DNA of 33,250 nt from Myxococcales bacterium (GTDB taxonomy: Bacteria > Myxococcota_A > Polyangia > Fen-1088): positions 1-33,250 of the forward strand of contig PMKP01000355.1 in assembly GCA_003157775.1 (NCBI GenBank), given 5' to 3'. Of this stretch, positions 11,847 to 29,032 are shown in pieces. Made by a program: the position numbers and the translations under genes. How positions within the stretch are numbered: the first letter of the stretch is position 1; the number at the start of each line of letters is the position of its first letter. Under the pieces are notes generated by a model. It had not been told where the DNA came from, made no database searches, and saw only the letters and a list, made by a program, of their open reading frames with translations.

Positions 11847-14315
11847 TCAACCCCCGACCTCCTCCTCCAGCAGCGCCAACGCCCTTGGCAGATCCGGGCG
11901 CAATTGCAGGACCGGCGCTAGGGGATCTTCGCGCAGTCGCTTCATGCGGCCGGGCGCGGTTTTGATGGTGAAGGCCGCGGGATTCAGGCGGGCGTTCACT
12001 TCGGACCAGCGCACGGGCATGGACACGCGGGCGCCGGGGACTGCACGTGCGCTGAAGGGGCCGGCAATGGTCTTGCCGTGGCCGTTTTGTAGGCAGTCCA
12101 GGTACACGCGGCCGGCCCGCTGGGCGACGGCACGGGTCACAGTGGCAAGATCAGGATGATCGCGAACCATGACTTGGCCGAGCAGTTGGGCCAGGGTGCG
12201 CGACTCGGCGTGGATGAGTTGGCCAGCCAGAGGAATGAGAACATGCAGCCCGCTGCCGCCGCTGGTCTTGGCAAAGCAAGGCAAATCGATGCGCTCGCAC
12301 AGTTGGTGAATGGCGCGGGCCAATTGCACCACATGGGCAAAGGGCGCGTCCTTGGGATCGAGATCCAGGATGCACCAGTCCGGCCGCTCCAGCGAGCCAG
12401 CTCGACTTGCCCACACATGCAGCGGAATGCTGCCCAGGTTGGCCAGGTACAGGATCGATTCCACATCGTCGCACAGGAAATACTCCAGCTCGGCCTTGCG
12501 CTCGTCGCTCCAGATGCGCACCCGACGCACCCACTCGGGCGACCAGGTGGGCGCGTCCTTCTGGAAGAACGACGGCCCGGCAATGCCCTCGGGATAGCGG
12601 GTCAGCACCAGGGGCCGGTCGCGCAGGTAGGAGAGCAGCCAGGGTGCGATCGCGCGATAGTAGTCAATCAGATCGCCTTTGGTGAATCCCTCGGCGGGCC
12701 AGAAGATTTTCTTCAGGTTGGTGAAGGCAATCCGCTTCTCGACGTCCGGCTTGGCAAGCGGCGGCTCGGTCTTCGCCAGTGGACGGGCACATTCCTCCGG
12801 CCACTTGTCTGTGCGCCAGCGCAAGAAACTCGGCTGGCGCAGAAGTCCGTCGCTGGTGATCTCCTTGTAGCGCACCTCGCACACCAGGCGGGGCTTCACC
12901 CAAGTGTGTTCACGACCGCTCGGCACTGCTCCCGAGCACGGGGGCTCGGCCTGCACGTCGTCGTGCAGTTCTTGCGGCAGGCTGGCCAGATCCTTCTCGG
13001 ACAGGCCGCTGCCCACCCGTCCCGCATACACCAACGCCCCGGATTCCTGGGCTGCCAGGTGCAGGGCGCCCAGTCCGCTGCGCAGACCGCGGGGCGCGGT
13101 GTAGCCTACCACCACGAAATCCGCGCTGTGGTCGCGCCGGATCTTCAGCCAGTCGGGCGAACGACCGGCGCGATAGGGTGATTCGGCCCGCTTGGCCATC
13201 ACGCCCTCCAGCCCCAGCCTCGAGATCTCCTCGAACATCTCTTGCCCGCGGGTTTCAATATGGTCCACGTAGTGCAGGGGTCCCAGTGCCGGCAGCAATC
13301 GGCTGAGCAGTGCCTTGCGTGTGGCAAGAGGCAGCGAGCGCAGATCGCGAGCCTCGAAACCGAGCAAATCGAAGACGAACAGGCTGGCGGGCAGGCTCAA
13401 GGCCGCGTGCTCGATGTCAGGCTGCCGGGTCAGCAACGCCCGTTGCTGCAGGCGCTCGAAGCTGGGCCGGCCCTGCTCGTCGCACACCGTGATCTCGCCG
13501 TCCAGAACAATATCAGCCGGCAGAGCGCCCAGTGCCGCCGCCAAATCAGGGTAGAGCGCGGTGGCGTCGCTTCCATGTCGGTAGAGCAGCTTGCCCCGTC
13601 CGCCTTCATGCGCGGCCAGAGCGCGGAAGCCGTCGTACTTGATCTCGAACAGCCAGCCTGGCTCGGAGAAGGACTGCGGCCGGTTTTCCGCCAGCATCAA
13701 CTGAACTTGCTCGGCCCGCAGCGGGGAGATCGGCAGCTTGGCGACCTGGGCGCGCACCTCGGCCCAGCGGGGCGAGCCGTCGCGCAGTTCCTCGATGGTC
13801 AAGCCAGACAGCACCGAAGCTTCAGCCAAGCTGCTTTCGCCGCCGCGGACAACGTAGGCATCGCGTTCTTTGATAAGCAGCCAGTCCCTTTCGCTCTTCG
13901 CCAGACGCACCAGTGACCAGGCCCCGCGCAGCTTGTAGCCGGCGAAGGTGAAACGCAGCTTGCCCTTGGCCAGACCCTGCTCGACGTCGTCGAGCGGGTT
14001 CCAGGTGCCGCGATCCCATACGATGGTGGGGCCAGCGCCGTAGTTGCCGGCAGGAATCACGCCTTCGAACGATCCGTATTCGATGGGGTGGTCTTCCACC
14101 TGCACCGCCAGGCGCTTTTCCGCTGGGTCGAAACTGGGCACCCGGGGCACAGCCCACGAACGCAGCACGCCCTCCATCTCCAGGCGAAGATCGTAGTGCA
14201 GGCGCCGCGCGGCGTGTTTGTGCATCACGAACAACCTCCTCGGACCAAAACCGCCGCCAAACGGCTCATTGGTCCGGCTCGGCGAGCGCTTGGCGCGATA
14301 ATCCTGCAGGGGCAA
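11847..14315 (-). CDS. ligD: Multifunctional NHEJ DNA ligase LigD (phosphoesterase-ligase-polymerase)
   Basis: This ATP-dependent ligase repairs double-strand breaks with Ku. Taking TTG 14315 as start (AAAAGG lies 5 bp upstream), the product has 822 residues in the order PE-LIG-POL. The 3'-phosphoesterase domain carries H34 and H40 in HKHAARRLHYDLRLE and the conserved VIPAGNYGAG. The ligase domain has the nucleotidylated Lys226 in FEIKYDGFR and downstream DGEITVCDE and EGVMAKRAESPYRAGRSPDW. The C-terminal primase-polymerase domain has F-x-K-D-A-P, the metal-binding DLDP near residue 651 and SGGSGLHVLIPL near 685. A longer open frame upstream to 14669 would run through the ku start and lacks family similarity. 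Domain order matches Pseudomonas-type LigD rather than the mycobacterial order. It is divergent from ku with 66 bp between start codons. Confidence 0.93.
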   Translation of the reverse strand: MPLQDYRAKRSPSRTNEPFGGGFGPRRLFVMHKHAARRLHYDLRLEMEGVLRSWAVPRVPSFDPAEKRLAVQVEDHPIEYGSFEGVIPAGNYGAGPTIVWDRGTWNPLDDVEQGLAKGKLRFTFAGYKLRGAWSLVRLAKSERDWLLIKERDAYVVRGGESSLAEASVLSGLTIEELRDGSPRWAEVRAQVAKLPISPLRAEQVQLMLAENRPQSFSEPGWLFEIKYDGFRALAAHEGGRGKLLYRHGSDATALYPDLAAALGALPADIVLDGEITVCDEQGRPSFERLQQRALLTRQPDIEHAALSLPASLFVFDLLGFEARDLRSLPLATRKALLSRLLPALGPLHYVDHIETRGQEMFEEISRLGLEGVMAKRAESPYRAGRSPDWLKIRRDHSADFVVVGYTAPRGLRSGLGALHLAAQESGALVYAGRVGSGLSEKDLASLPQELHDDVQAEPPCSGAVPSGREHTWVKPRLVCEVRYKEITSDGLLRQPSFLRWRTDKWPEECARPLAKTEPPLAKPDVEKRIAFTNLKKIFWPAEGFTKGDLIDYYRAIAPWLLSYLRDRPLVLTRYPEGIAGPSFFQKDAPTWSPEWVRRVRIWSDERKAELEYFLCDDVESILYLANLGSIPLHVWASRAGSLERPDWCILDLDPKDAPFAHVVQLARAIHQLCERIDLPCFAKTSGGSGLHVLIPLAGQLIHAESRTLAQLLGQVMVRDHPDLATVTRAVAQRAGRVYLDCLQNGHGKTIAGPFSARAVPGARVSMPVRWSEVNARLNPAAFTIKTAPGRMKRLREDPLAPVLQLRPDLPRALALLEEEVGG

Positions 14316-14326
14316 AAGAACCTTTT

Positions 14327-14343
14327 CGCGCAAACATTGCGCG
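14327..14343. promoter_or_regulatory. Perfect 7-3-7 inverted repeat in the ligD-ku divergent promoter region
   Basis: CGCGCAA-ACA-TTGCGCG lies between the two start codons, 12 bp from the inferred ligD start and 38 bp from ku. Its symmetry and position suit an operator for a dimeric regulator acting on both genes. No confident -35/-10 pair could be placed around it. If ligD actually starts farther upstream, the palindrome would be coding. Confidence 0.45.
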
Positions 14344-14381
14344 GGACTCGCAGCAACTGTTTTCTGCGCTACGCTTGGATC

Positions 14382-15269
14382 ATGGCGCAGGCAATGGCGG
14401 GTGCAACAATCTCGTTTGGGTTGGTGTCGATTCCAGTGAAGCTGTACGCGGCCACGCAGCCTTCGGCTGGCATTTCGTTTCACCTGTTGCACGGCAAGGA
14501 CGGCTCGCGCCTGCGTCAGCAGTACCTTTGCGCCAAGGATGGCCAGGTGGTGCCACGCGAGGAAATGGTGAAAGGCTATGAGTTCGCCAAGGATCAGTAC
14601 GTGACCTTCACCAGCGAGGAACTCAAGGCCGTGGAGGAGAAGGCGACCCAGGCCATTGCCATTGCGCAATTCGTACCCGCGGACAAGGTCGACCCGATCT
14701 ACTTTGACCGTCCCTATTATCTGGCGCCCGACAAAGGCGGCGAGAAGGCCTACCGTCTACTGGTCGAGGTGATGCGCCAGAGCGGCCGCGCCGCCATCGC
14801 CCGCTACGCCGCGCGGGACCGGCTGTACCTGGTGATGTTGCGACCGGTTCCGGGAGCACAGCCGGGCGCCAGCGGGTTGGTCATGCAGCAACTGTTGTAT
14901 GCCGACGAGGTGCGCCCCCTGGCCGAAGTTCCGATACCCGAGGGGCAGTCGAGTGAGGCCGAACTGAAACTGGCCAGTCAAGTGGTCGAGCAGATCGCCT
15001 CCGACAGCTTCGACCCAGTGGCATATCGCAACGACGTGCGCGAGCGGATGCAGGCCGAGATCGAGCGCAAGGTGGCAGGCCAGGAGGTGGCTGTGTCAGC
15101 CGCGCCGGAGCAGCCCGCGCAGATCATCGATCTGATGGAGGCACTCAAGGCCAGCCTCGCGGCGCGCGGACAACCGGCAGTGACGGGCACGCGCGAACTC
15201 GAACGCAAGCCGGCCCGGCCCGCACCGTCGCACAGTGCGCGGCCCAAGGCGCGTTCCTCGCGGGGCTGA
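14382..15269 (+). CDS. ku: DNA end-binding protein Ku
   Basis: The 295-residue protein is a bacterial Ku homologue that binds DNA ends as a homodimer and recruits LigD. Family marks include ATISFGLVSIPVKLYAAT at the start, SFHLLHGKDGSRLRQQYLC, the VPREEMVKGYEF strand, the YYLAPDKGGEKAYRLL segment and the bridge-region IARYAARDRLYLVMLRP. After residue 250 a linker and a basic Pro/Ala/Arg/Ser tail (RPAPSHSARPKARSSRG) follow, as in many Ku proteins where such tails modulate DNA binding. ATG 14382 is preferred since it begins MAQAMAGATISFG; ATG 14394 is an alternative. The open frame further upstream overlaps ligD and has no similarity. No strong ribosome-binding site is seen, so expression may be low or conditional. 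Confidence 0.93.
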   Translation: MAQAMAGATISFGLVSIPVKLYAATQPSAGISFHLLHGKDGSRLRQQYLCAKDGQVVPREEMVKGYEFAKDQYVTFTSEELKAVEEKATQAIAIAQFVPADKVDPIYFDRPYYLAPDKGGEKAYRLLVEVMRQSGRAAIARYAARDRLYLVMLRPVPGAQPGASGLVMQQLLYADEVRPLAEVPIPEGQSSEAELKLASQVVEQIASDSFDPVAYRNDVRERMQAEIERKVAGQEVAVSAAPEQPAQIIDLMEALKASLAARGQPAVTGTRELERKPARPAPSHSARPKARSSRG

Positions 15270-15289: not shown

Positions 15290-16000
15290 ATGCGGGTGTG
15301 GGTCGGAACAAGCGGGTTCAGCTACCCGCCCTGGCGTGGCTCGTTCTATCCAGAAAAACTTCCGGCCGGCGACATGCTGGCTTTCTACGCGCAGCAACTC
15401 CCGACGGTGGAGATCAACAACACCTTCTACCGCATGCCCAGCCCTGCCCTGCTCGAACGCTGGTCCGCCGCCACGCCAGCCGACTTCGTCTTCGCCCTCA
15501 AGTGCAGCCGGCGCATCACCCATGAGCTGCGGCTCCACGACGCGCAGAGCGCGGTGGAGCGCTTCGCCAAAGGGGCAGCAACCTTGGGCAGCAAGCTGGG
15601 CCCGGTGCTGTTTCAGTTGCCGCCCTGGCTGCACAAGGATCTGGAGCGCCTGCAGGCCTTCCTGACTGTACTGGCACAAGTTGGGCAAGGAATTCGTGCA
15701 GCCTTCGAGTTTCGCCATGCTTCATGGTTTTCCGAAGACGTCTACGCCACCCTGCGAACGGCAAAAGCTGCACTGTGCATTGCCGAAGCCGAGAAGCTGG
15801 AGACGCCCCTGCAGGCCACCAGCTCATGGGGCTACCTCCGCCTGCGTCGGGAAGACTACACAGAGGCCGCCCTGGACGCCTGGGCCGGCCGCATCGCCCA
15901 ACAGCCTTGGAGCGAGGCCTACGTCTTCGTCAAGCACGAGACTGCAGAGGCGCCTGCCCTGGCCGGTCGCCTGCTCGCTGCGCTCCGAGCTTCTGGCTGA
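15290..16000 (+). CDS. DUF72 (YecE-like) protein
   Basis: The 236-residue protein has the DUF72 TIM-barrel signature: V-x-x-G-T-S-G-F-S-Y at the N-terminus, PTVEINNTFYRMPSPALLER, FALKCSRRITHELRL, LGPVLFQLPPWLHKDLERL, the acidic FEFRHASWF and the late strand WGYLRLRREDY. Its biochemical role is unknown. ATG 15290 is preceded by GGAGGTGGGCG and lies 20 bp after the ku stop, so it is probably in the same transcript as ku. Length is within the normal range. Confidence 0.9.
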   Translation: MRVWVGTSGFSYPPWRGSFYPEKLPAGDMLAFYAQQLPTVEINNTFYRMPSPALLERWSAATPADFVFALKCSRRITHELRLHDAQSAVERFAKGAATLGSKLGPVLFQLPPWLHKDLERLQAFLTVLAQVGQGIRAAFEFRHASWFSEDVYATLRTAKAALCIAEAEKLETPLQATSSWGYLRLRREDYTEAALDAWAGRIAQQPWSEAYVFVKHETAEAPALAGRLLAALRASG

Positions 16001-16076: not shown

Positions 16077-16418
16077 ATGCCAGCCCCGACCAGCCCACGC
16101 AAGCAATCGCTCATGCCTTCCTCACCCCTGCGCCGCCTGCTGCGCGCTTCTGGCCATGCCCTGCAGGCGGTGGTCCAGATTGGCAAGGGCGGAACCAACG
16201 CGGCGGTCATCGCCCAGGTCGCGCGGGCACTCTTGGACCACGAGCTCATCAAGGTCAAGTTGAGCCGCGAGTGTCCGGAAACGCGATTCGAAGTAGCCGA
16301 ACGCCTGGGCGAGAGCCCGGGCGTCAACGTGGTTCAGATCCTCGGGCGCACCATCTTGCTTTACCAGCGCCACCCCAAACAACCGCGTTTCGAGGGCGAA
16401 GCGGCGCGAACTCTCTGA
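16077..16418 (+). CDS. YhbY-type CRM-domain RNA-binding protein
   Basis: The 113-residue product is a single CRM domain of the YhbY family, which associates with pre-50S ribosomal particles. It shows LRRLLRASGHALQAVVQIGK with the GKGG loop (IGKGGTN), then LLDHELIKVKLSREC and a final strand VVQILGRTILLYQR. The start is uncertain: ATG 16077 gives a 12-residue extension before a second ATG at 16113 (MPSSPLRRLL), and either could be used. It follows the DUF72 gene by 76 bp in the same orientation. Confidence 0.88.
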   Translation: MPAPTSPRKQSLMPSSPLRRLLRASGHALQAVVQIGKGGTNAAVIAQVARALLDHELIKVKLSRECPETRFEVAERLGESPGVNVVQILGRTILLYQRHPKQPRFEGEAARTL

Positions 16419-16539: not shown

Positions 16540-17394
16540 ATGTTCAGCGTTCGTCTTGCTTGCGCCGCAGCCTTTTGTGGTTCGGTTTCTTTGCTATCCT
16601 CTCCGGCTATGTCCCAGCCCGAGTTGCCACGTCCCAGTCCTGCGGCCAAGGTGTCGCAGGTTATCGGACTGACCGAGGTGTCGGTCGAGTACAGTAGCCC
16701 GGCGGTCAAGAACCGCAAGATCTGGGGCGGCCTGGTGCCCTATGATCAGATCTGGCGGACCGGGGCAAACCAGGCGACCAAGATCAGTTTCAGCAAGGAC
16801 GTGGTCTTTGCGGGCAAGCCTGTGCCGGCCGGGAGCTACGCCTTGTTCACCATTCCGACCAAGGGCGCGTGGACCGTAGTGCTCAACAAGAAAGCCGACC
16901 AGGCGGGCACGGGGCGTGACTACAAGGCCGACCTGGACCTGCTGCGCGTGCAAGTGCAGACCAAGGCGGCTCCCTTCCGCGAGCGCATGACGTTTCTCTT
17001 CGCCGATTTCACCGACGACGAGGTTTCGCTCAATCTGGAATGGGAACGGCTGCGCCTGTCCATCCCCATCCAGGTTCACACGGCCGAGCAAGCCCTGGCC
17101 AACATTGCCGCCAGCATCGATGGCACCTGGCGAACCTATGCCTTTGCTGCGCGCTACATGTTGGAGACCAAAAAGGACTACAACACTGGCCTCAAGTACA
17201 TCGACCAGTCGCTGGCGCTGAAAGAAGATTGGCTCAACCTGTGGATCAAGGCGTCGCTGCTCGCGGCCAAGGGCAACTACAAGGATGCCCATGCCCTGGC
17301 CGAGAAGGCCTACCAGCTCGGCCAGAAGGCAGAGTTCTTCTTCTTCGAGGCCGATGTGAAGAAGGCGCTCAGCGAGTGGAAGAAGAAGCTCTAG
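16540..17394 (+). CDS. Exported DUF2911 protein with TPR-like C-terminus
   Basis: ATG 16540 with AAGGAG upstream gives a 284-residue protein with a cleavable signal peptide (LACAAAFCGSVSLLSSPAMS). The mature part begins with the DUF2911 pattern: V-S-Q-V-I-G-L-T-E-V-S-V-E-Y-S-S-P, IWGGLVPYDQIWRTGANQAT, PAGSYALFTIPTKGAWTVVL and a C-terminal W-x-R-L-R-L strand. From about residue 185 it turns helical with two TPR-like helical pairs (DYNTGLKYIDQSLALKEDWL and NYKDAHALAEKAYQLGQKAE). DUF2911 has no assigned reaction and is common in envelope proteins of Bacteroidota and Myxococcota. Its last 26 bp overlap the 3' end of the convergent bshA gene. Confidence 0.88.
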   Translation: MFSVRLACAAAFCGSVSLLSSPAMSQPELPRPSPAAKVSQVIGLTEVSVEYSSPAVKNRKIWGGLVPYDQIWRTGANQATKISFSKDVVFAGKPVPAGSYALFTIPTKGAWTVVLNKKADQAGTGRDYKADLDLLRVQVQTKAAPFRERMTFLFADFTDDEVSLNLEWERLRLSIPIQVHTAEQALANIAASIDGTWRTYAFAARYMLETKKDYNTGLKYIDQSLALKEDWLNLWIKASLLAAKGNYKDAHALAEKAYQLGQKAEFFFFEADVKKALSEWKKKL

Positions 17395-18514
17395 TGCCGA
17401 CGACGCGGCGATAGACCGCGTGATAGCGCTCCACTGCCGGTTCAAGCTGGAAGTGCGTCTCGGCCCGACTTCGTGCTGCGCGTGACATTCGCGCGTGGAG
17501 ATTCTCGTCGGTGAGGAGACGGCGTACCTGCTTCGCCATCTCGTCCGGATTTCCCACCGGAGCCAAGAAGCCGGTCTCGCCGTCCAGCACGACCTCGGGC
17601 AGACCGCCCACGTTCGAGGCCACCACGGGTACGCCACAAGCCATTGCCTCCAGCGCACCCAGGCCGAAACTCTCGGTCTCGCTGGGCAGCAGGAACACGT
17701 CGCTCCCCTGCAAGACCTCCGCCACGTCCGCGCCCTCGCCGAAGAACTTCACAGCGCCTGCCAGCCCGAGAGAATGGACCAACCCATCGACGCGTGGGCG
17801 TTCCGGGCCATCGCCGACCAAGTGCAACTTCACTGGCATCTCGCCGCGCACGCGCGCGAAGATCCGCACGACGTCTTCGACCCGCTTGAGCGGACGAAAA
17901 TTGGAAACGTGGGTGAGAACCCGCTCGGCGGACGCGATCTCACGACGAACCACGCGAAAGCGCTGGGTGTCGACGAAGTTCGGAATCACTTCAATGCTGG
18001 TCTCGCGTGGCAGGCCGAGGTTGCAGAAGGCCTGCTCCGCCAACCAACGCGAGGGAGCGGTGATGGCATCTCCGGCCAGAACCGCAAAGCGCGTGAGCGA
18101 CGAGAATTTCGGATTCGCGCCAATGCGGGTGACGTCCGTGCCATGCAGGGTAATCAGGACTTTGGGAGCGACAGCGCCCAGAACCTGGCGGGCCAGATAG
18201 GCGCCGAGCGCATGGGGAACGGCGTAGTGAACGTGAAGAAGGTCCAGGCGTTCCGCTTGCGCCACCTCGATCATCTCGGCTGCCAAAGCCAGGGCATACG
18301 AACGCTCTGCCGGCACGGGATAGTCGAGGGCTGCGACAGCGTGAAACGAGATGTTGGGACAGGAAAGGTCGAGGCGTGCGGGTGGCTTGTCACTGAAAAA
18401 CGCAACCCGGTGGCCCCGCCGCGCCATTGACATTCCAGTCTCGGATGCGATCACGCCGCTTCCACCAAAGGTTGAAAAGCACGCCACGCCGATGCGCAAT
18501 TGGGCTGCGCTCAT
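17369..18514 (-). CDS. bshA: N-acetyl-alpha-D-glucosaminyl L-malate synthase BshA (GT4)
   Basis: BshA transfers GlcNAc from UDP-GlcNAc to L-malate, the first step of bacillithiol synthesis. The 381-residue GT4 protein begins LRIGVACFSTFGGSGVIASE, the characteristic BshA N-terminus. It continues with DLLHVHYAVPHALGAYLAR, ITLHGTDVTRIG, IEVIPNFVDTQRF, VSNFRPLKRVEDVVRIF, and the C-terminal donor-binding PSETESFGLGALEAMACG. Length is typical. ATG 18514 overlaps the bshC stop in an ATGA arrangement, so the two are translationally coupled with bshC upstream. The 3' end overlaps the convergent DUF2911 gene by 26 bp. The divergent PIG-L gene nearby may supply the deacetylase function or a related one. 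Confidence 0.93.
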   Translation of the reverse strand: MSAAQLRIGVACFSTFGGSGVIASETGMSMARRGHRVAFFSDKPPARLDLSCPNISFHAVAALDYPVPAERSYALALAAEMIEVAQAERLDLLHVHYAVPHALGAYLARQVLGAVAPKVLITLHGTDVTRIGANPKFSSLTRFAVLAGDAITAPSRWLAEQAFCNLGLPRETSIEVIPNFVDTQRFRVVRREIASAERVLTHVSNFRPLKRVEDVVRIFARVRGEMPVKLHLVGDGPERPRVDGLVHSLGLAGAVKFFGEGADVAEVLQGSDVFLLPSETESFGLGALEAMACGVPVVASNVGGLPEVVLDGETGFLAPVGNPDEMAKQVRRLLTDENLHARMSRAARSRAETHFQLEPAVERYHAVYRRVVGTRASSSTR

Positions 18515-20142
18515 GGCAGAAGCTCCAGAACGTCCGTGGCAAAGGCGCCTGCCTGCTCCAATCCTTCAATCACCAAACGCTTGCAAACCGGAACGCCCAA
18601 GCGGCCGGCCAGCCAGGGCCAACCATAGAAGCGCTCTTGCGCGACACCGCCGGGATAAAGGACCATCTCAAGCTGATGAATCCTTCGCTGTGTGGTTTCA
18701 TCGCCCTCGACCAAATCGTGTGCGTAGCGCCCAATGAGCTGTTCCAGGGCATGGGCCACACTGCCCCGCGTGCGCTGCGCGGGCCGGCGCAAATGCTCGC
18801 GAGTGGCAGAAATGGCCGATGTGATTTCGTCGACGGCCGGCAGAATCTGCCTTGCGACTCGATCGCGCAACTCTTGCGGATCAGGAGAGCCGGCGGGGCG
18901 CGCTGGATGGAGCCGGGCACGGAGCTCATGCGCAGGTTGCGCCAGATCGGAAGCTCTAAGCCCCGACTGCGCAAGCCAGCGACGCGTGCGAGCGTCCACG
19001 CAACGAAAACGCGCGCGGGAAACCAGTAGCGGCGGCACAACCCCAAAGTGATGGTAGAGCGGGCCTAGCTCGGCGAAGTAGTTGATCTCGCCCGGACCAC
19101 CAACATAGGCCGCGGTTGGCAGCAGCGCGTCCTGCACGATGGGGCGCAAGAGCGCGGAAGTGGAAAAGCGCAGCGGCTCGCGCGCAAGCAGGTCGAGCAA
19201 TTCGGCGTGGGTTACGGTTTGTGTAGTCCCAGCCAAAGCCCACTCCGTGGCACCTTCGCGTGCGCTCTTCTGCAGACGAAAGCGCGGCCCGGCCGCGCTG
19301 CCTTGGTGAAAGAACACCAGCGCGCAAGAGCGAACCGGAACCTGCGTGGCAAATCCCGCAGTGCAAAGCGCGGCCTGGCGGTCCTGCAAATGCCGTTCGA
19401 TCAATTCCGCATCTTCGATGCATGATCGGTAGATAGGCGCAGCCAGGGACGCCACGCGCGCGTCGCGCGGATCGAGAAGGATCAACCCCTCGTCGGCGAA
19501 AAGCGTGGCCAACACTCCGGAAAACGCCGCTGCGAGCGATCGCCCAGGCCGATATTGTGCCCGCAAGAGCGCCAACACCTCTTCTGCCCCTGGCTGGCCA
19601 TCGAGCAAAGAACCCAGCTTGTCGAGCACAGCATCGATCTCCGCCCCCAAGCACCGGTACGCCACCGACACGCGAGACTCGGCCTCGCTGCCCTCCGACA
19701 GCTCAAGCTGCACGGGTTGCCCATCCGATCCGGCCACGGCGCAGGTGCGGATCTCAGCGAAGTCGTGGTCCTCGGTTTGCAGCCAGAAGAGCGGCACGCA
19801 GCGGATCCCAGACTCGGCCTCGATGGCCCGCGCCACGACCACCGCCGAGGCTGCCTTGTAGAATGTGTAGAGCGGGCCGAGGAACAGTCCCACCTGTTGC
19901 CCTGTTGCCACCACCGCCACGCCGCCTTCTGCCAGGGCTTCCAGACTTGCCTGGCGGGCTGCGCTCGCGGGCAAGGCAGCTTGTTGCTCGCGCAGGACCT
20001 CCAGCAGAGCGGCTGGCACCCTGCGACCAGCCGCGAGCCGGGCCACCCTTTGCCGTTCGGCCGGGTCGCGAAAGCCTGACGCAAAAAACGCGTGTGCAGC
20101 AGGCTCACCTGCGAGGTAGGAATCAGAGAATGCGCGGCCCAC
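18511..20142 (-). CDS. bshC: Putative bacillithiol cysteine-adding enzyme BshC
   Basis: BshC is thought to couple cysteine to GlcN-malate, completing bacillithiol. Recognisable features are VVATGQQVGLFLGPLYTFYK near residue 80, VPLFWLQTEDHDFAEI shortly after, GEINYFAELGPLYHHFGV in the second half, and the C-terminal QERFYGWPWLAGRLG. The open frame continues upstream to 20415, but similarity begins at about AFSDSYLAGEP, so GTG 20142 is used, giving 543 residues, the usual length. No clear ribosome-binding site precedes it. This start overlaps by 13 bp the ATG (20130) chosen for the divergent PIG-L gene, so one of the two starts may lie further inside its gene. It is coupled to bshA by a 4-bp overlap. 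Confidence 0.9.
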   Translation of the reverse strand: MGRAFSDSYLAGEPAAHAFFASGFRDPAERQRVARLAAGRRVPAALLEVLREQQAALPASAARQASLEALAEGGVAVVATGQQVGLFLGPLYTFYKAASAVVVARAIEAESGIRCVPLFWLQTEDHDFAEIRTCAVAGSDGQPVQLELSEGSEAESRVSVAYRCLGAEIDAVLDKLGSLLDGQPGAEEVLALLRAQYRPGRSLAAAFSGVLATLFADEGLILLDPRDARVASLAAPIYRSCIEDAELIERHLQDRQAALCTAGFATQVPVRSCALVFFHQGSAAGPRFRLQKSAREGATEWALAGTTQTVTHAELLDLLAREPLRFSTSALLRPIVQDALLPTAAYVGGPGEINYFAELGPLYHHFGVVPPLLVSRARFRCVDARTRRWLAQSGLRASDLAQPAHELRARLHPARPAGSPDPQELRDRVARQILPAVDEITSAISATREHLRRPAQRTRGSVAHALEQLIGRYAHDLVEGDETTQRRIHQLEMVLYPGGVAQERFYGWPWLAGRLGVPVCKRLVIEGLEQAGAFATDVLELLP

Positions 20143-22724
20143 TTTTGCCGTTGAGTATACTCGGCGGGAATCCCTCGCGCCGGGCAGGCTTCGGCTTTTT
20201 CCTCCCCCTCCTGGTTTTGTCCATGACCACTCTTTTACCCAACGTCGCCCAGGCTGGCCCGACAGAATTGGATAGTGCGCAGATCCAACTGGCCCTGCGC
20301 AAGCTCGGCGTGGTGGGCAGCGTGCTCTACATCGGCGCGCACCCCGATGACGAGAACACCAACCTGCTCGCCTACCTTGCCAACCACGCGCTCTTGCGCA
20401 CGGCGTATCTGTCACTCACGCGCGGCGATGGGGGACAAAACCTGATCGGCGCAGAGCAGGGAGCGGAGTTGGGTGTGATCCGCACGCAGGAACTGCTCGC
20501 CGCGCGCCGAATTGATGGGGCGGAACAGTTCTTCACTCGTGCGCGCGACTTTGGCTACTCGAAGACCCCTGAAGAAACCTTGCGCATCTGGGGCAAGGAC
20601 GCTGTGCTGGCCGACGTGGTTTGGGTCATCCGGCGTTTTCGGCCTGACATCATCATCACCCGCTTTTCCCCCGAGCTGGCCGACACGCACGGGCACCACA
20701 CGGCCTCGGCGCAGCTCGCGGTTGAGGCATTTCGGGCAGCCGCGACCCCGACACGTTTCCCGGAGCAACTCGGGCAGGGAGTGCGCCCCTGGCAAGCGCA
20801 GCGACTGCTTTGGAACCGCTCTTCGTGGAGCATCAAGCCGGGGGAAGACTTGTCGAAGTTTCTCAGCCTGGATGTGGGCAAGTACAACCCGCTCTTGGGG
20901 CTTTCCTACGGCGAGATGGCGGCGGACAGCCGCAGCATGCACAAGAGCCAAGGCTTTGGCGTGGCACGCGCGCGCGGGCCCATCGTCGAGTACTTCAAGC
21001 TCCTGGACCAGGCGCCTTCCTCTCCTTCGCTCGCCGGCAGCGTGCTGGGTGGGATCGACTTCTCCTGGTCGCGCATCAAGGACAGCAGCGAGGTTGCACG
21101 CCTGGTTGAACGAGCGGCTCGCCAATTTGTGCCTGCGACGCCGCACAAGATCATCCCAATCCTTTTGCAGTTGGATAAAGCGCTGGACTTTATCCCCGAT
21201 GCGTACTGGCGCACACACAAGGAGGACCAGGTGCGCGAGTTGGTCTTGGCTTGTGCAGGACTCTTTATTGAAGCGACCGCCGCCGATTTTCGTGCCGTGC
21301 CGGGCGAGACCGTGGACGTGACGGCGACGGCCATCAATCGCTCGCCCGCCGAGTTCGCTCTGCGCGAAATTCGCCTACCAGACTCCGTCATCCCGATGAG
21401 GATAGGCTCGCTCGCTTCGTTTGAGGTGAAGCGAGCCATCCGCGTCCCAAACACCGCGGCTCTGACCACTCCCTACTGGCTGGTCGCGCCGCCGGAGCCA
21501 GGACTCTTCCGTGTCGAAGATCCCACGCTCGTCGGCATGCCTGAGGCCCCTGCGCCGCTCGCCGTCGAGTTCGTGCTGGTCTCCCCCATCTCCACGCTGA
21601 CCGTGAAACGGCCTATCACCTTCAAGTGGACCGATCCGGTTGCAGGCGAGTGCTATCGTCCCCTCGAAGTTACACCCCCGATACTAGTGCGGCCTGCAAG
21701 CACCATGTTGGTCTTGCCCAATGGAGAGCCGCGAACCTTGGGCGTCCGCCTCACCGCAGTGGCCGCACCAATCTCGGGCAGCTTGCGTCCCGAGATCCCA
21801 GCCGGCTGGTCGGTAGCGCCCACCAGCGCCCCCTTCGAACTGGCCGCCAAAGGGGACGAGAAGGAAATTCTTTTCCACATTCAGCCATCGCCGAAGATGG
21901 GCCAGCAGGTTTATGCAAGAGTTGTCTTGCATTTCGTGGCTGAGGTTGGTGGAGGCCGCTTCTCTCTCGGCCAAATTCGCATTGAACACGCCCACATTCC
22001 CATGCAGACGATTCTTGCCAACGCCGACGTGCAGTTGTCCGCCTTTCCGCTGGAACGGAAAGGAACCCGAATTGGCTACCTTCCCGGGCCTGGCGACGAG
22101 ATCCCCGCCAGCCTTCGCCAAGCCGGCTACATGGTGACGGTCATCAGCGACCCGGTACTGGCAGACGCGGCCGCGAGCCAAAGCGCTGCCGCTTTCGCCG
22201 ATTTCGACGCCGTCGTGACCGGCGTGCGCGCCTTCAACAGCAATGCGCGGGTACGTGCAGCCTACCGGGCCCTGTTGGCCTATGTTCAGTCCGGTGGAAC
22301 GTTGGTCGTCCAGTACAACACCAATAATCGCCTGAGCCCGCTCCACACACCCATTGGTCCCTTCCCTTTCGAGATCGGCCACGAGCGCGTGACTGACGAA
22401 GATGCGCCGGTCACCTTCACCTCGCCCGCCCATTCCATCCTCAACTACCCCAACAAGATTACCGAACACGATTTCCAAGGCTGGCTGCAAGAGCGCGGCC
22501 TCTACTTTGCGTCCAATTGGGATGCGCGCTATCAAACTATGGTCTCCATGAGTGACCCCGGCGAGCCTGCCCTGCCTGGTGGCATTTTGGTCGCGCGGTA
22601 TGGAAAGGGAACCTTCATCTACACCGGGTTGGCATTCTTTCGGCAATTGCCCGCGGGCGTGCCGGGCGCTTTCCGCCTGTTCGCCAATCTTCTCGCCGGC
22701 GCCACGGAGTCTCATGGCAAGTGA
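20130..22724 (+). CDS. Exported large PIG-L/LmbE family deacetylase
   Basis: This 864-residue protein carries a membrane-targeting signal (GFFLPLLVLSMTTLLPNVAQA) followed by a PIG-L/LmbE zinc-dependent N-acetylglucosaminyl hydrolase domain: VLYIGAHPDDENTNLLAYLA with H71-x-D73-D74-E, SLTRGDGGQN, and the second metal site D-T-H187-G-H-H190. Beyond about residue 300 are beta-rich segments (RAVPGETVDVTATAINRSPA) and a C-terminal alpha/beta domain (TFHSP-like ISDPVLADAA, then FNSNARVRAAYRALLAYVQ and GGTLVVQYNTNN) recalling ThuA/GATase-1 folds. Ordinary BshB enzymes are about 230 residues and cytosolic, so this is not a standard BshB. ATG 20130 has AGGA 8 bp upstream; a start at TTG 20151 is possible. 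It is divergent from bshC-bshA and overlaps the next gene by 11 bp, so action on an envelope-side bacillithiol-related substrate is a reasonable guess. Confidence 0.82.
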   Translation: MRGPLLPLSILGGNPSRRAGFGFFLPLLVLSMTTLLPNVAQAGPTELDSAQIQLALRKLGVVGSVLYIGAHPDDENTNLLAYLANHALLRTAYLSLTRGDGGQNLIGAEQGAELGVIRTQELLAARRIDGAEQFFTRARDFGYSKTPEETLRIWGKDAVLADVVWVIRRFRPDIIITRFSPELADTHGHHTASAQLAVEAFRAAATPTRFPEQLGQGVRPWQAQRLLWNRSSWSIKPGEDLSKFLSLDVGKYNPLLGLSYGEMAADSRSMHKSQGFGVARARGPIVEYFKLLDQAPSSPSLAGSVLGGIDFSWSRIKDSSEVARLVERAARQFVPATPHKIIPILLQLDKALDFIPDAYWRTHKEDQVRELVLACAGLFIEATAADFRAVPGETVDVTATAINRSPAEFALREIRLPDSVIPMRIGSLASFEVKRAIRVPNTAALTTPYWLVAPPEPGLFRVEDPTLVGMPEAPAPLAVEFVLVSPISTLTVKRPITFKWTDPVAGECYRPLEVTPPILVRPASTMLVLPNGEPRTLGVRLTAVAAPISGSLRPEIPAGWSVAPTSAPFELAAKGDEKEILFHIQPSPKMGQQVYARVVLHFVAEVGGGRFSLGQIRIEHAHIPMQTILANADVQLSAFPLERKGTRIGYLPGPGDEIPASLRQAGYMVTVISDPVLADAAASQSAAAFADFDAVVTGVRAFNSNARVRAAYRALLAYVQSGGTLVVQYNTNNRLSPLHTPIGPFPFEIGHERVTDEDAPVTFTSPAHSILNYPNKITEHDFQGWLQERGLYFASNWDARYQTMVSMSDPGEPALPGGILVARYGKGTFIYTGLAFFRQLPAGVPGAFRLFANLLAGATESHGK

Positions 22725-22857
22725 GCCCGAGCTAGCGCGCCGGGAACTTCATGCGGCGCCACCCTTTCTGACCTGGACCGGCCTCTACTGGGTTGTGGCC
22801 GGCGCACTCCTGGCCGAGATAGTGCTTTTCATAGCCCTCACCCTTGCCTACCGATGA
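22714..22857 (+). CDS. 47-residue single-TM protein coupled to PIG-L and symporter genes
   Basis: A short gene bridges its neighbours: ATG 22714 lies 11 bp inside the PIG-L gene, and its stop overlaps the symporter ATG (22854) in an ATGA arrangement. The product has a charged N-terminus (MASEPELARRELH), an aromatic interface (FLTWTGLYW) and one membrane helix at about residues 24-45 (WVVAGALLAEIVLFIALTLA). Sodium:solute symporters are sometimes encoded with a small membrane partner (YhdT with PanF, YjcH with ActP), so an accessory subunit is plausible. I do not recognise its family. The double overlap strongly suggests real translation. Confidence 0.65.
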   Translation: MASEPELARRELHAAPPFLTWTGLYWVVAGALLAEIVLFIALTLAYR

Positions 22858-24557
22858 GTTCACTCGACTGGCTGGTTCTCCTCGGCACCCTGGGCGGCAT
22901 TGTGGCGTACGGGGTGTACAGGACGCGTGGCAGGCAGGACATGGCTACCTATCTGCGAGGGGGCTACCAGGAAAAGTGGCACACCATCGGCTTGTCAGTG
23001 ATGGCAACCCAGGCCAGCGCGGTGACCTTCTTGTCAACCCCCGGCCAGGCATACCAAGACGGAATGGGCTTCGTGCAGTTCTACTTCGGCCTGCCACTGG
23101 CCATGATCGTGCTATCAGTCGCCTTCATTCCTCGCTATTTCCAGCTTCGGGTCTACACCGCCTACGAGTTTCTTGAGAGCCGCTTCGATCGCAAGACCCG
23201 CCAGTTGGCGGCGTTCCTGTTCTTGCTCCTGCGCGGACTTTCCGCTGGCATCACCATCTACGCGCCCGCCATCATCTTGTCCTCGGTTCTTGGCTGGCCG
23301 CTTCGCCTCACCTGCTTGTGCATGGGGGCCATGGTGATCCTGTACACGGTCGCGGGGGGCACGCGGGCCGTCAGTCAGACCCAGAAGCATCAGATGGTCG
23401 TAATGCTGGGCGGGATGGTGGTCGCATTCATCGTCATCGTGATGCGCTTGCCGGCAACGGTTTCCCTGCGCAACGCCTTTCACATCGCGGGCACCCTGGG
23501 CAAGTTGAACGTCATCGATTTTTCTGCCGATCCGAGCCGGCGCTACACCCTTTGGTCCGGCTTGCTGGGAGGTTTCTTCCTGGCCACGGCCTACTTCGGG
23601 ACCGACCAGTCGCAGGTACAACGCTACCTCGCGGGCCAATCCATCACTCAAAGCCGCTTGGGCCTGCTCTTCAATGGCCTGGTCAAGGTTCCCATGCAGT
23701 TTCTCGTCCTGCTGGTTGGCGTGATGGTTTTCGTTTTCTACCAATTCAATCTGCCACCGATCTTTTTCAATCAGCCGGAACTCGCCCGCGTCTATCGAAC
23801 TCCCCACGCGGCCCACGCAGCCGCGCTTGAACGCGACCACCAGGCCGCCTTCGGGCGCAAGCGCGCCGAAATCGAGCGCCTCGACGCTGCCTTGAACCGG
23901 CACGACGAAGAGTCTATCGCTGCCGCCGAGAAAGCGGTGCGCGCTAGCGAAGCGGACTCCGCATCCATCCGCGCTGAGATGAGGCAAGTCCTCGCCACTG
24001 CCCTGCCCCACCCCGCGACCAAGGATGCAGACTACGTGTTCTTGTCTTTCGTTATGCACAACCTTCCGCGTGGAATCGTGGGCTTGCTTCTTGCCGTCAT
24101 CTTCTGCGCAGCTATGTCCGCCGTTGCCAGTGAACTATCGTCGCTGGCCTCGACCACGGTCATCGATTTCTACCGACGCAGCCTGTGCAAGAACGCCAGC
24201 GATGCGCACTACGTCCGCGCCGCGCGCTGGTTCACCGCAGGCTGGGGCATCTTGGCTTTGCTTTTCGCCACCTTTGCTTCACTGCTCGACAACCTCATCC
24301 AAGCGGTCAATATTCTTGGCTCGCTTTTCTACGGCACGGTGCTGGGCATTTTCGCTGTGGCGTTCTTCCTGCGCCGGGTGCAGGGAACCGCCGTGTTCCT
24401 CGCCGCGCTCCTCTCCGAGGCGCTCGTCCTCTTCCTCTTCCTACGAACCAACGTCAGCTTTCTTTGGTACAACGTCGTCGGTTGCGCAGCCGTGATGCTT
24501 ATTTCTGCGACCGCGACCAAATTGCCAGGTCTTTGCACTCCTCGCAGTCCGGGTTGA
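22854..24557 (+). CDS. Sodium:solute symporter (SSS family) with cytosolic-type helical insert
   Basis: The 567-residue membrane protein is an SSS-family transporter, which drives solute uptake with a sodium gradient. Visible family marks are YLRGGYQEKWHTIGLSVMAT, QASAVTFLSTPGQAYQDG, the helix IPRYFQLRVYTAYEFLESRF, TVAGGTRAVSQTQKHQMVVM, YFGTDQSQVQRYLAGQS and FCAAMSAVASELSSLASTTV. About twelve or more membrane segments are apparent. At residues about 315-385 a highly charged, Ala/Glu/Arg-rich helical segment interrupts the membrane part; it looks like a coiled coil and is not in generic SSS members. The substrate is unknown. Coupling to the exported PIG-L enzyme through the 47-residue gene suggests that it imports that enzyme's product. 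The last 59 bp overlap the convergent tautomerase gene. Confidence 0.87.
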   Translation: MSSLDWLVLLGTLGGIVAYGVYRTRGRQDMATYLRGGYQEKWHTIGLSVMATQASAVTFLSTPGQAYQDGMGFVQFYFGLPLAMIVLSVAFIPRYFQLRVYTAYEFLESRFDRKTRQLAAFLFLLLRGLSAGITIYAPAIILSSVLGWPLRLTCLCMGAMVILYTVAGGTRAVSQTQKHQMVVMLGGMVVAFIVIVMRLPATVSLRNAFHIAGTLGKLNVIDFSADPSRRYTLWSGLLGGFFLATAYFGTDQSQVQRYLAGQSITQSRLGLLFNGLVKVPMQFLVLLVGVMVFVFYQFNLPPIFFNQPELARVYRTPHAAHAAALERDHQAAFGRKRAEIERLDAALNRHDEESIAAAEKAVRASEADSASIRAEMRQVLATALPHPATKDADYVFLSFVMHNLPRGIVGLLLAVIFCAAMSAVASELSSLASTTVIDFYRRSLCKNASDAHYVRAARWFTAGWGILALLFATFASLLDNLIQAVNILGSLFYGTVLGIFAVAFFLRRVQGTAVFLAALLSEALVLFLFLRTNVSFLWYNVVGCAAVMLISATATKLPGLCTPRSPG

Positions 24558-24685: not shown

Positions 24686-27600
24686 CTATGCCGGCTCGCC
24701 GGCGTTCCCACCCGTGCGCATGCGCGCAGTCAGGTTCTGCACCGGCACCAGCTTGTCGCGGGGTTGCCAGACACCGGGCTGCGCGTCGTTGCCGCCGATG
24801 CTCATGCGGCCACTTGCACGTTTGCCGCTGACAGCGTTGTTGAGGAACACCTCCAGACGCCGATTCTGTCCGCCGCTGCCGTCGTAAAACAAACTGACAA
24901 TGGGCATGTCCACCTCGGCTGACACGCGGCCAAACACTGCTGTGGCCACGGTCTCGGGCATGCAGCCAAAGGGCGCGCAGTTGACCACCATGGCAGCACC
25001 CTGTTGCGCGAACTTGATGGCACGGCCGATTGACAACTTGCCTTCGCCGCCACAGTAGAACGCCATGTAGGGGGTGGCCAGTTTCATGCATTCCTGGAAG
25101 GGCGGCTCGTGCCGGTCGTCGAGCAACGGGCTGGCCGCGCGCATGAGCTTCTGCTCCCAATGCCTCATCCAGTGGTAGGTCACAAAGGTGTCGGCCTTGT
25201 CCCACGACATGATGGTCGAGGGGAATTCCTCCATGTAGTTTTCAATTGACGACGTGTAGAGGATCCAGTCGGTAATCGGGATCATCCACGCCTCGCCGCC
25301 AAACATCTCAATGGCGCTGATCACGTCTTCATTGGCGTAGACGTTGTTGCGCACGTAGATCTCGCCCACTATGCCGACCAGGGGTTTGCGCGCTCCCGCC
25401 ACGGGAATGGCAGCGATCTTGCCAATGCCTTCGTGAATGACAGCAGGAAGATCGCCGTCTTTCTCCAGGGCCAGCGCCACCGCATCAGTCACTTCGGCCA
25501 CCACCCGGTCAGTTTCACCGGCGTTGACCTCGTAGGGCCGAACCTTGCACTGGGCCTTGAGGATGATGTCCGCGCAGGCAATCGCCTTGAACAACGAGCG
25601 GCGCATCTGGCTGTCCAGCCCCTGGTAGGCGTTGTTCGAGGCCGGCGCCAGGATGGCCACGTCTTCGAATCCCTCGCGGTCCAGGATCTGGCGGTGCAAG
25701 ACGGTGTACTGGCCGAAGCGGCACGGGCCCTTGGAACTGGGCATGAAGAATGCGTGCCGGCCGCCGGCTGGCTGCTGGCGCAGCGTCTTCAACAACGTCC
25801 CGATGGTGAGCGCGCAGGGCAAGCACTCGGATCCGCGGGTCAGCGAGCGTCCCAGGTCGAACGATTCCTTGTCCTCGTCGGGCAAGGTGCGCGCGTCGTA
25901 GCCGTGTTGCCGAAAGGCCGCCGCGAACAGGCGCGTGCCGAACTGGTGCATGGGCGGGATCCAGATGGTGCGGCCACGCAGATCCGAAGGCTCGATGTGC
26001 TCGCGCGCGCGCCCGCCGCGTTCGGGCCGCGGCCGCCGCAACACATCGAAATACGCCTCCAATCGGGTCATGTACCCGGCGTCGGCGCCGTGCTCGTCCA
26101 GCTCCAGCATGAGCAGCGGCCGGCGCCCCATGATCTCCTCGGCAAAGCTGAGCAGGAAGCTGTCCGGCCCGCAGGAGAAGTTGGTCAGGTACACCACGTC
26201 GAGCAACTCGCTCTCAGCCGCCTGTTCCAGCGCGGTCAGGATCCTCTGGCCGTAGCTCCAAAAGGCGTTCCGGTAGCGCAGACCCAGGCGCCACAGCTCG
26301 GGCCGAAGGAAATCCATGGGCAGGACCGTGCGGCCCATGTCCGCGATCTTCTGCGGCAGACCCAGGTTGGCGCCGCCGTCGTAGTTGTTGTACGGCCTTC
26401 CCACCAGCAGAATCATCTTCTCGTTCTTGGCGGTGGCCTCGGCCAGGATCTTGGCGCCCTCTTCCTGGCAGCGCTCTTCGAAGCCGGCCTGCGCCTGCAG
26501 GCCCGCGCGCCAAGCCCGCCGAATGTCGCGCGACGAGCACCCGAGTGGCCGGGCCAGCTCGTCGGCCAGCGTCTTGATGATGTCCCGCTCGCGCATACGC
26601 ATGTCCACCAAGGGCGAGAGTAAGCGCGAGGCGTCCATGTGGTTCATGGCCAGGGCGCTGCGGCTGCAGGCCGCCGTGCCTTGCACATAGGGGCACACGG
26701 CCGTTCCCGTGGTTTCTTCATTGGCCGGTGTGTTCTTCAGGTGCGGCACGAACACGAAGTCCACTCCGTCGCTGACCGCCAGCTTGGCCACATGGCCGAG
26801 CGCCAGCTTGGCCGGGAAGCAGAAGTCGGCTCCCGCCATGCGCGGGCCCAGCTCGCGGATCTCGTCCGTGGTCTGGCCGGACAGTTGCACGCGCAAGCCC
26901 AGGGTATTGAAGAAACGCTGCCACAGCGGATAGTAGGTGTAGGTCAGAAGGGCCTGCGGAAGACCCACCACCGGCGCGTTATCGGGAACCTTCACCCCGG
27001 CGCCCGCTTCGCGCCACAGACGCTGGCGCAGGCGCAGGGCTCGGTCGAATGGGCTCTTGCGTACCTTTTGCTCGTTGGGATCGCGGCCGCACATATAGCC
27101 CCACGAGGGCGAGCCCTGCACGCCCTCAATGTCGGCAAAGGTTATGGTGCAGTCATTCTGGCAGAGACTGCAGCTTTCTTTGCGCAAAGCGATCTTGCGC
27201 TTGTCGAGATCAAGCCCACGGAAGCGCGATTGGTGCAGGCCCTGCTCCGCCATGGTCTGGCGCACCAGCCGGGCCACGCCGAAGGCGCCCATCACGTGAC
27301 AGTAGGGTGAAACCACCACCTCCACGTCGAGCAGGCGCTCGAACGCGGCCACCAGCGCCTTGTTCCGCGCGGTGGCGCCCTGGAACATGATGCGCTTGCG
27401 GCTGCGGTGGCGGTTGCCCACCACCTTGTTGAGGTAGTTCTTGGCCACCGCGACCATGACCGCGGCCATGGCCTCGGGCCGGCTGGCGCCTGCCTCGATG
27501 AAGCGGCCCACGTCCTGCTCCATGAAGACAGTGCAGCGATCGGTGGCGCGCGGGGGCTTCACCCCCAGCACCGCCTGACCCACCTCCGCCACCTGGTAGC

Positions 27601-29032
27601 CCAGCTTGTTGGCCTGCTCCTCGATGAACGAGCCCGTGCCCGCGGCGCACACGTAGTTCATGTTCGCGTCGCGGATGTGACCGTCGACGATATGCATGTA
27701 CTTGGCGTCCTGGCCGCCGATTTCGAAGATGGTGTCGACGGAGGGATCGGTGAAGGTGGCGCCTGCCACATGGGCGCTGATTTCGTTGATGATGGCGTCC
27801 GCGCCGATCACCTCGCCCACAATCTTGCGGCCGCTGCCTGTGGTCCCTGCGCCCAGGACTTCGATGTGCGCGCCTTTCTTTTCCTCAAGCTCGCGCAAGG
27901 CGTGGCACAGCTTCTGCGTGGCGCCCACTGGATCGCCGCCCGTCTTGCGGTACACGTCGACCAGCAGCTCGTCCTTGTCGTTGACCAGCGCCAACTTGGT
28001 GCTGGTCGAGCCGATGTCGATGCCCAGGTACACGCGCAACGACTGGCCCGCGGGCCACGAAACCACGCGGACCTCGTTGCCTTCCTGGTCAGTGTAGGAC
28101 TCGGCCAGGCGAAAATCGGGGTACTTGGACTTCTCCAGGGTGAGCGGCCAAGGGTGGAACTCCACATCGCTGCTGGTGGCAATACGATGCAATGATTCGC
28201 GCGAGGGCAACCGCCGCGGCACCGCGCCCAGGGCGGCAGCGCCCATGGCCGCCACCAGATGGGGCGAGGCTGGCGCGCGCAGCAGGTTGGGGAAAACCGC
28301 GTCCAACCAACGCAGGACCTCGCGGTTGAGCGCCACCCCTCCGATGATCGCAGTGGGCGCATCCAGGGGCCGCGCCCGCAGAAGGGTTCCAATCAGGGTG
28401 CGGGTCATCCCCCGGCACAGGCCGGACCACATGGCGGCCTTGCTGTAGCCCTCCTGCTGGCGGTGGATAAGGTCGCTCTTGGCGAACACCGAACAACGGG
28501 TGGCGATGGAGGGCGGCTCGGCCACGCTGCCCACCAGGGCCGGATCGCTGCAGTCCAGGCCCAGACGCGCGGCTTGCTCATCGAGGAACGATCCAGTGCC
28601 AGCCGCGCACATGGAGTTGGTGGCGTAGTTTTGAAAGTGCCCCTGGGCGTCGAGCTGCACCAGGGTCACCGACCCGCCGCCGATGTCGATGATGTTGCGA
28701 ACCTCGGGGAACTGGGCGTGCACTACGCGAATCTGACAGGCCGCGATGTCTAGCCGCCTGGTTTCAAAAGCCTCGCAGAAGCGGGTCGCATTCAGCCCGC
28801 AGAAGCCGATGGCGTCCCCGGGTGCCAGATTAAGCTCGCGGAGGGCGCGCTCCAGCACGGGGGCCGGTTCACCCTTGTGTCGGGCGTAGAAGGATTGAAC
28901 GACCTTGCCGGCACTGTCGATCCGAACCGCCTTGAGCGATACGGCGCCGATGTCGACTCCTATTCTTCCCGGTTGCTCCACGGTCACACGTGTTTCGTGA
29001 GGTTGATGTAGGTGTCCGCCGGTGCGCGGCAT
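24686..29032 (-). CDS. Giant two-activase protein fused to 2-hydroxyacyl-CoA dehydratase-like domains
   Basis: The 1,448-residue cytoplasmic protein joins two BadF/BadG/BcrA/BcrD-type ATPase units to dehydratase-like parts. Unit 1 (about 20-320) has GVDIGAVSLKAVRI, DIGGGSVTLVQ, C-A-A-G-T-G-S-F and a second Cys in ATRCSVFAKSDLI. Unit 2 (about 333-600) has GIDIGSTSTKLALVN, FEIGGQDAKYM, NYVCAAGTGSFIEEQ and TDRCTVFMEQD. The paired Cys fit a [4Fe-4S] cluster at a dimer interface, here possibly formed within one chain. A CSLCQNDC motif near residue 617 follows, then a DUF2229/HgdB-like region with DFCFPAKLALGHV, CPYVQGTAACSR and ECLPCALTIGTLLKTL. Relatives are of unknown physiological role; radical dehydratase activation or double-cubane-type low-potential reduction are candidates. 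The start is uncertain (ATG 29032, GTG 28987 or 28981). Confidence 0.85.
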   Translation of the reverse strand: MPRTGGHLHQPHETRVTVEQPGRIGVDIGAVSLKAVRIDSAGKVVQSFYARHKGEPAPVLERALRELNLAPGDAIGFCGLNATRFCEAFETRRLDIAACQIRVVHAQFPEVRNIIDIGGGSVTLVQLDAQGHFQNYATNSMCAAGTGSFLDEQAARLGLDCSDPALVGSVAEPPSIATRCSVFAKSDLIHRQQEGYSKAAMWSGLCRGMTRTLIGTLLRARPLDAPTAIIGGVALNREVLRWLDAVFPNLLRAPASPHLVAAMGAAALGAVPRRLPSRESLHRIATSSDVEFHPWPLTLEKSKYPDFRLAESYTDQEGNEVRVVSWPAGQSLRVYLGIDIGSTSTKLALVNDKDELLVDVYRKTGGDPVGATQKLCHALRELEEKKGAHIEVLGAGTTGSGRKIVGEVIGADAIINEISAHVAGATFTDPSVDTIFEIGGQDAKYMHIVDGHIRDANMNYVCAAGTGSFIEEQANKLGYQVAEVGQAVLGVKPPRATDRCTVFMEQDVGRFIEAGASRPEAMAAVMVAVAKNYLNKVVGNRHRSRKRIMFQGATARNKALVAAFERLLDVEVVVSPYCHVMGAFGVARLVRQTMAEQGLHQSRFRGLDLDKRKIALRKESCSLCQNDCTITFADIEGVQGSPSWGYMCGRDPNEQKVRKSPFDRALRLRQRLWREAGAGVKVPDNAPVVGLPQALLTYTYYPLWQRFFNTLGLRVQLSGQTTDEIRELGPRMAGADFCFPAKLALGHVAKLAVSDGVDFVFVPHLKNTPANEETTGTAVCPYVQGTAACSRSALAMNHMDASRLLSPLVDMRMRERDIIKTLADELARPLGCSSRDIRRAWRAGLQAQAGFEERCQEEGAKILAEATAKNEKMILLVGRPYNNYDGGANLGLPQKIADMGRTVLPMDFLRPELWRLGLRYRNAFWSYGQRILTALEQAAESELLDVVYLTNFSCGPDSFLLSFAEEIMGRRPLLMLELDEHGADAGYMTRLEAYFDVLRRPRPERGGRAREHIEPSDLRGRTIWIPPMHQFGTRLFAAAFRQHGYDARTLPDEDKESFDLGRSLTRGSECLPCALTIGTLLKTLRQQPAGGRHAFFMPSSKGPCRFGQYTVLHRQILDREGFEDVAILAPASNNAYQGLDSQMRRSLFKAIACADIILKAQCKVRPYEVNAGETDRVVAEVTDAVALALEKDGDLPAVIHEGIGKIAAIPVAGARKPLVGIVGEIYVRNNVYANEDVISAIEMFGGEAWMIPITDWILYTSSIENYMEEFPSTIMSWDKADTFVTYHWMRHWEQKLMRAASPLLDDRHEPPFQECMKLATPYMAFYCGGEGKLSIGRAIKFAQQGAAMVVNCAPFGCMPETVATAVFGRVSAEVDMPIVSLFYDGSGGQNRRLEVFLNNAVSGKRASGRMSIGGNDAQPGVWQPRDKLVPVQNLTARMRTGGNAGEPA

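Follow-up and report, generated by a model that had tools for sequence, protein, structure and literature searches.

A bacillithiol-linked unit of exported PIG-L hydrolase, tiny membrane protein and sodium:solute symporter in Myxococcota and other phyla

Here we describe a locus in which the bacillithiol genes bshC and bshA face a translationally coupled operon for an exported PIG-L hydrolase (hereafter referred to as long PIG-L), a tiny single-transmembrane (TM) protein and a symporter of the sodium:solute symporter (SSS) family (Table 1). The window analysed is one whole contig of 33,250 bp from a source assembly of 5.48 Mb (485 contigs, 87% complete), most likely of Myxococcota. The long PIG-L and tiny TM frames overlap by 11 bp, and the tiny TM and symporter frames by 4 bp (ATGA); this arrangement, including the protein sizes of 864 and 47 residues, is as the first-pass annotation of this DNA had described it. 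The bshC profile match (model position 5 at 20130) is consistent with a protein reading M-G-R-A-F from 20142. The 5′ ends of the divergent bshC (GTG) and long PIG-L (ATG) frames thereby overlap by 13 bp (window 20130-20142), and the two profile matches abut at the identical base in four genomes (G002, G003, G006 and G017). Because of this overlap, the promoter of each gene is expected within the gene facing it; a search there gave no sigma-70-like site. Other frames in the window, named by eye, resemble a prokaryotic Ku protein (14088-15269), adjoined by DUF72-like (15290-16000) and YhbY-like (16077-16418) frames, and a fused 2-hydroxyacyl-CoA dehydratase activase-type protein of 1,451 residues (24686-29041, minus strand).

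Table 1. Genes, domains and structural features at the locus (window positions)
Feature	Position	Strand	Evidence
bshA, GlcNAc-malate synthase	17369..18514	-	TIGR03999 442.5 bits, cut-off 273.7
bshC, cysteine-adding enzyme	18511..20142, GTG start at 20142	-	TIGR03998 380 bits, cut-off 265.8
Exported long PIG-L hydrolase, 864 aa	20130..22724	+	PF02585 60.5 bits, gathering cut-off 28.2; AlphaFold2 pLDDT 92.6
Signal-peptide-like N-terminus of long PIG-L, residues 1-43 (...NVAQA/G)	20130..20258	+	homologues alike
PIG-L (LmbE-like) catalytic domain, residues 61-312	20310..21065	+	nearest fold MshB 4ewl; H71, D73, D74, R118, D140, H187, H190
Tandem beta-sandwich region of long PIG-L, residues 374-641	21249..22052	+	structure model; Ig-like matches
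ThuA-like / class I glutamine-amidotransferase-like domain, residues 644-859	22059..22706	+	2gk3 Z 15.7, 1t0b Z 13.6
47-aa single-TM protein, probable symporter accessory subunit	22714..22857	+	family in 85/87 PIG-L/SSS loci
SSS-family sodium:solute symporter, 567 aa	22854..24557	+	PF00474, TIGR00813; nearest fold SiaT 5nva
Helical hairpin insert in symporter, residues 319-383	23808..24002	+	structure model; outer side by homology

The long PIG-L enzyme belongs to the PIG-L (LmbE-like) superfamily. Among NCBIfam models it comes closest to Mca, then to MshB and BshB1, and it stays under the cut-offs for Mca (TIGR03446; 46.1 bits, cut-off 277) and BshB1 (TIGR04001; 27.9-30.4 bits, cut-off 182.5). 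Its AlphaFold2 model consists of the PIG-L domain, a double beta-sandwich and the ThuA-like domain. In a structure search with this model, the PIG-L domain was most similar to MshB (4ewl; Z 21.9, 229 residues, r.m.s.d. 3.2) and also resembled BshB (6ull; Z 19.1). The zinc and catalytic residues H71, D73, D74 and H190 (HxDD plus H) are invariant in all 94 homologues, as are R118, D140 and H187, the equivalents of the GlcNAc-recognition residues Arg68, Asp95 and His144 of MshB (PMC4101496). In BshB, Arg109, next to the catalytic His, contacts malate (PMC4101496); the corresponding position, before H187, is G, T, N or S in 93 of the 94 long PIG-L sequences and Arg in one. Given its invariant catalytic and sugar-binding residues and the missing Arg109, the domain is expected to accommodate an N-acyl-glucosamine core and is not a BshB by sequence. 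An ordinary BshB1 identity was thus rejected, as the protein fails the TIGR04001 cut-off, lacks Arg109 and has 864 residues with a signal-like N-terminus versus about 230 residues in the cytosolic enzyme. Position 78, which we take to be equivalent to Mca Lys19 and MshB Ser20, was considered as a switch (R/A/N/Q) tracking the presence of bshB1 and was likewise rejected, the bshB1-less family f29 keeping Arg.

Export of the enzyme, proposed in the first-pass annotation, is strongly supported as a prediction by the conserved N-termini. Those of the homologues are hydrophobic and signal-like with A-x-A type sites; an automatic count with chosen starts found them in 89 of 94 sequences, and the remaining five look like starts picked too far downstream. 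A shorter relative is found in Bacteroidota, in frames of about 640-870 residues (for example, G422:C24:145088-147343 and G546:C1:2875530-2877641); its PIG-L part and C-terminal ThuA-like part are matched, and the middle region is not.

The symporter scores above the cut-offs of both SSS models (PF00474, 127.1 bits, cut-off 22.8; TIGR00813, 224.2 bits, cut-off 184). Its structure model (pLDDT 88) has the LeuT-type SSS fold and is closest to SiaT (Z 42.7 over 466 residues, 26% identity). The two-helix insertion is modelled with high confidence (pLDDT about 94-97), and most members of the family have a segment of about the same length; when placed by homology, the insertion would face outward. 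Gene order makes the tiny TM protein a probable accessory subunit of the symporter. Judging by structure titles, human SGLT carriers have been solved together with a small protein, MAP17, which may serve as a precedent for a small partner of an SSS carrier.

The symporter gene is adjacent to that of long PIG-L in 89 loci and missing in 22 that have room for it (about one-fifth). A profile of the tiny protein found a family member in 85 of 87 enzyme–symporter loci, and the trio spans Bacteroidota, Ignavibacteria, Acidobacteriota, Eisenbacteria, KSB1 and Myxococcota. Such recurrence across phyla marks the three genes as a real conserved trio, so that the coupling of hydrolase and symporter as a unit, first read from this window, is seen as conserved gene order. 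Seven Chitinophaga loci (L127, L128, L135, L158, L160, L177 and L179) have, in addition to the tiny TM protein, an extra small glycine-rich, two-TM-like protein between PIG-L and symporter.

The usual Myxococcota order, bshA-(bshB1)-bshC facing PIG-L-TM-SSS, recurs in related genomes. An Aminicenantes metagenome-assembled genome (MAG; locus L123) has five genes running in one direction, PIGL-bshC-bshB1-bshA-SSS. In Bacteroidota the enzyme and symporter stay paired, and the bsh genes share the genome but rarely the neighbourhood: among about 60 loci, bshB1 lies within 10 kb only at L168. The statement in the first-pass annotation that Bacteroidota carry similar PIG-L and symporter genes near bsh genes is thus mostly wrong as to proximity, although the tested genomes do have BshC.

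Co-inheritance was assessed in 284 Myxococcota genomes, each at least 85% complete. Long PIG-L occurs in 29 and BshC in 30, the latter count including two BshC-like fusions that score under the cut-off: 28 genomes have both proteins, one has PIG-L only, two have a sub-cut-off BshC-like protein only and 253 have neither (Fisher's exact P = 3 × 10^-35, relatedness ignored). With the two fusions set aside, 28 of 28 BshC genomes carry long PIG-L. Five families (f1, f3, f10, f11 and f33) each mix genomes with both proteins and genomes with neither, and among 59 closer genomes the counts are 18 with both, one with PIG-L only, one with a BshC-like protein only and 39 with neither. In the lone PIG-L-only genome (G162), which has no BshC, the enzyme gene lies next to a BshA-like match on a contig of 3.3 kb; in G051 and G058 both proteins are present on separate contigs. 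The two fusions belong to family f6 (G046:C62:200860-203003 and G307:C58:13289-15034; loci L273 and L274), in which the long enzyme is absent, a different PIG-L directly precedes the BshC-like protein and a BshA-like match is present; this cluster is perhaps for a related thiol.

Among genomes of other phyla and named species picked by their long PIG-L, 47 of 50 have BshC, the three others being MAG records of 2.7-2.9 Mb. In Bacteroidota the full-length enzyme occurs in 75 of 247 genomes, all 75 of which have BshC; this co-occurrence says little because 242 of the 247 have BshC anyway. In this Bacteroidota sample about two-thirds of the genomes encode BshC and no full-length long PIG-L; the bacillithiol pathway there can thus do without the module.

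Chance neighbourhood is ruled out by the recurrent gene order and by co-inheritance with BshC, and from these comparisons we hold with high confidence that the long PIG-L and symporter module is tied to bacillithiol. Co-occurrence with bsh genes, the absence of which the first-pass annotation had named as grounds for giving up the link, was thus found. The pairing of an exported hydrolase with an adjoining symporter would also suit scavenging, in which foreign bacillithiol, set free when prey or neighbouring cells lyse, is digested by the enzyme and its pieces are imported by the symporter as nutrients; Myxococcus lyses its prey. A pure scavenger, however, would be expected also in cells that do not make the thiol, whereas genomes with the module nearly always encode BshC themselves, which makes this explanation improbable. 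Still less probable is an unrelated GlcNAc glycan of the cell envelope as substrate, with an indirect link to bsh. PIG-L enzymes do act on many N-acetylglucosaminyl substrates (PMC4101496), and in Bacteroidota most of the loci lie away from bsh genes, but the five-gene Aminicenantes run and the almost exact inheritance of the enzyme together with BshC in families across Myxococcota argue against it.

A further question is how GlcN-malate is made. The first-pass annotation saw no standard BshB in the window, and this holds genome-wide: no BshB1 over the TIGR04001 cut-off was found in the whole source assembly (5.48 Mb, 87% complete), the sole other PIG-L of which is a divergent HSDD-type protein beside a glycosyltransferase. 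Among the 59 relatives, BshB1 occurs in G026 only. By sequence, Myxococcus xanthus (locus L121) carries bshB1 in addition to the trio. In 15 genomes (G002, G003, G006, G007, G013, G014, G017, G062, G070, G074, G101, G111, G218, G233 and G244) no PIG-L other than the long exported one was found, yet bshC or part of it is present, and bshA is present wherever the contig covers its place. Mapped on the BshC tree, the presence of bshB1 requires five changes or more. The tree alone gives no direction, but because bshB1 lies between bshC and bshA in both Aminicenantes and Myxococcota, we read the changes as losses, of which there were apparently about five. The bshB1-less loci retain bshA, so these cells should have some enzyme for deacetylating GlcNAc-malate. 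No other conserved linked enzyme able to replace BshB was found among the recurrent neighbours of these loci. The exported long PIG-L is the obvious candidate, which would place one step of the pathway outside the cytoplasm; a non-PIG-L deacetylase is also possible.

Taken furthest, this candidacy would make long PIG-L an extracytoplasmic BshB in some bshB1-less Myxococcota: GlcNAc-malate made by BshA would be exported, deacetylated by long PIG-L and re-imported through the symporter as GlcN-malate for BshC. The 15 genomes with no other PIG-L, the apparent bshB1 losses, the retention of bshA, so that GlcNAc-malate should still be made, and the lack of another conserved linked enzyme all favour such a route. 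Against it, the route is energetically odd, the malate-binding Arg109 of BshB is missing, and the same could be achieved by a cytosolic deacetylase outside the PIG-L family or by a pool that is kept inside and not exported; we also know of no exporter for the route. We consider it rather unlikely.

Our preferred reading, which we hold as probable, is an envelope module: an acyl-glucosaminyl-malate would be hydrolysed outside the cytoplasm, and GlcN-malate returned for BshC. The exported zinc PIG-L would cleave the N-acyl bond, the likeliest substrate being bacillithiol, its disulfide or its S-conjugates (as with Mca and Bca, but outside the cytoplasm); in lineages without bshB1, GlcNAc-malate may also be a substrate. 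The symporter, with the tiny TM protein as its accessory subunit, is predicted to take up GlcN-malate with Na+, to which BshC would re-add cysteine. The first-pass annotation had already suggested processing outside the cytoplasm and re-import. The bacillithiol link, export and symporter coupling in that proposal are borne out by co-occurrence, N-termini and gene order; the substrate, product, transport direction and subunit role we infer. Several points weigh against the envelope module: no exporter of bacillithiol or its conjugates was identified, Arg109 is missing, about one-fifth of the loci lack an adjacent symporter, and about two-thirds of the sampled Bacteroidota have BshC without the full-length enzyme. 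Sequence comparison does not tell bacillithiol hydrolysis apart from deacetylation of GlcNAc-malate.

Of the low-molecular-weight thiols of bacteria, bacillithiol and its derivatives are thought to have the widest distribution (PMC6282198), and inside cells Mca, and presumably also Bca, has been described to recycle the glucosamine moiety (PMC4101496). A literature search found nothing on bacillithiol uptake, export or turnover outside the cytoplasm, and searches for bacillithiol with PIG-L and symporter, or with Myxococcus, found nothing on a PIG-L/TM/SSS system. If the envelope reading is true, the conserved exported hydrolase and its dedicated symporter would be to bacillithiol what the outer cycle is to glutathione. 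Which enzyme produces GlcN-malate in the bshB1-less genomes can be tested directly.

Among known systems, the thiol S-conjugate amidases Mca and Bca share the PIG-L fold and the HxDD+H zinc site with long PIG-L, for which Mca is the best NCBIfam model; they hydrolyse an N-acyl-glucosamine bond and recycle GlcN-inositol or GlcN-malate (PMC4101496). They are short, single-domain and intracellular, whereas long PIG-L is exported, three-domain and symporter-coupled, and scores far below the Mca cut-off. The GlcNAc-malate deacetylases BshB1 and BshB2 resemble it in fold, zinc and catalytic residues and pathway neighbourhood, but differ from it in export, profile score and Arg109; long PIG-L co-exists with BshB1 in many genomes. 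MshB, the closest solved fold, with equivalents of all three sugar-recognition residues, has both deacetylase and amidase activity (PMC4360819); unlike long PIG-L, it is single-domain, serves mycothiol synthesis and has no export signal. SiaT shares its fold with the module's symporter and carries a carboxylated (acidic) amino sugar, sialic acid, but the symporter here has the helical hairpin insertion, a tiny TM partner and a PIG-L partner. SGLT–MAP17 and PanF–YhdT likewise pair a small membrane protein with an SSS carrier; both small proteins differ in sequence from the tiny TM protein, the pairing of which rests on gene order. The gamma-glutamyl cycle of glutathione (GGT plus uptake) is alike in outline, in that a thiol is hydrolysed outside and parts of it are taken back up, although its enzymes are unrelated by family to those described here.
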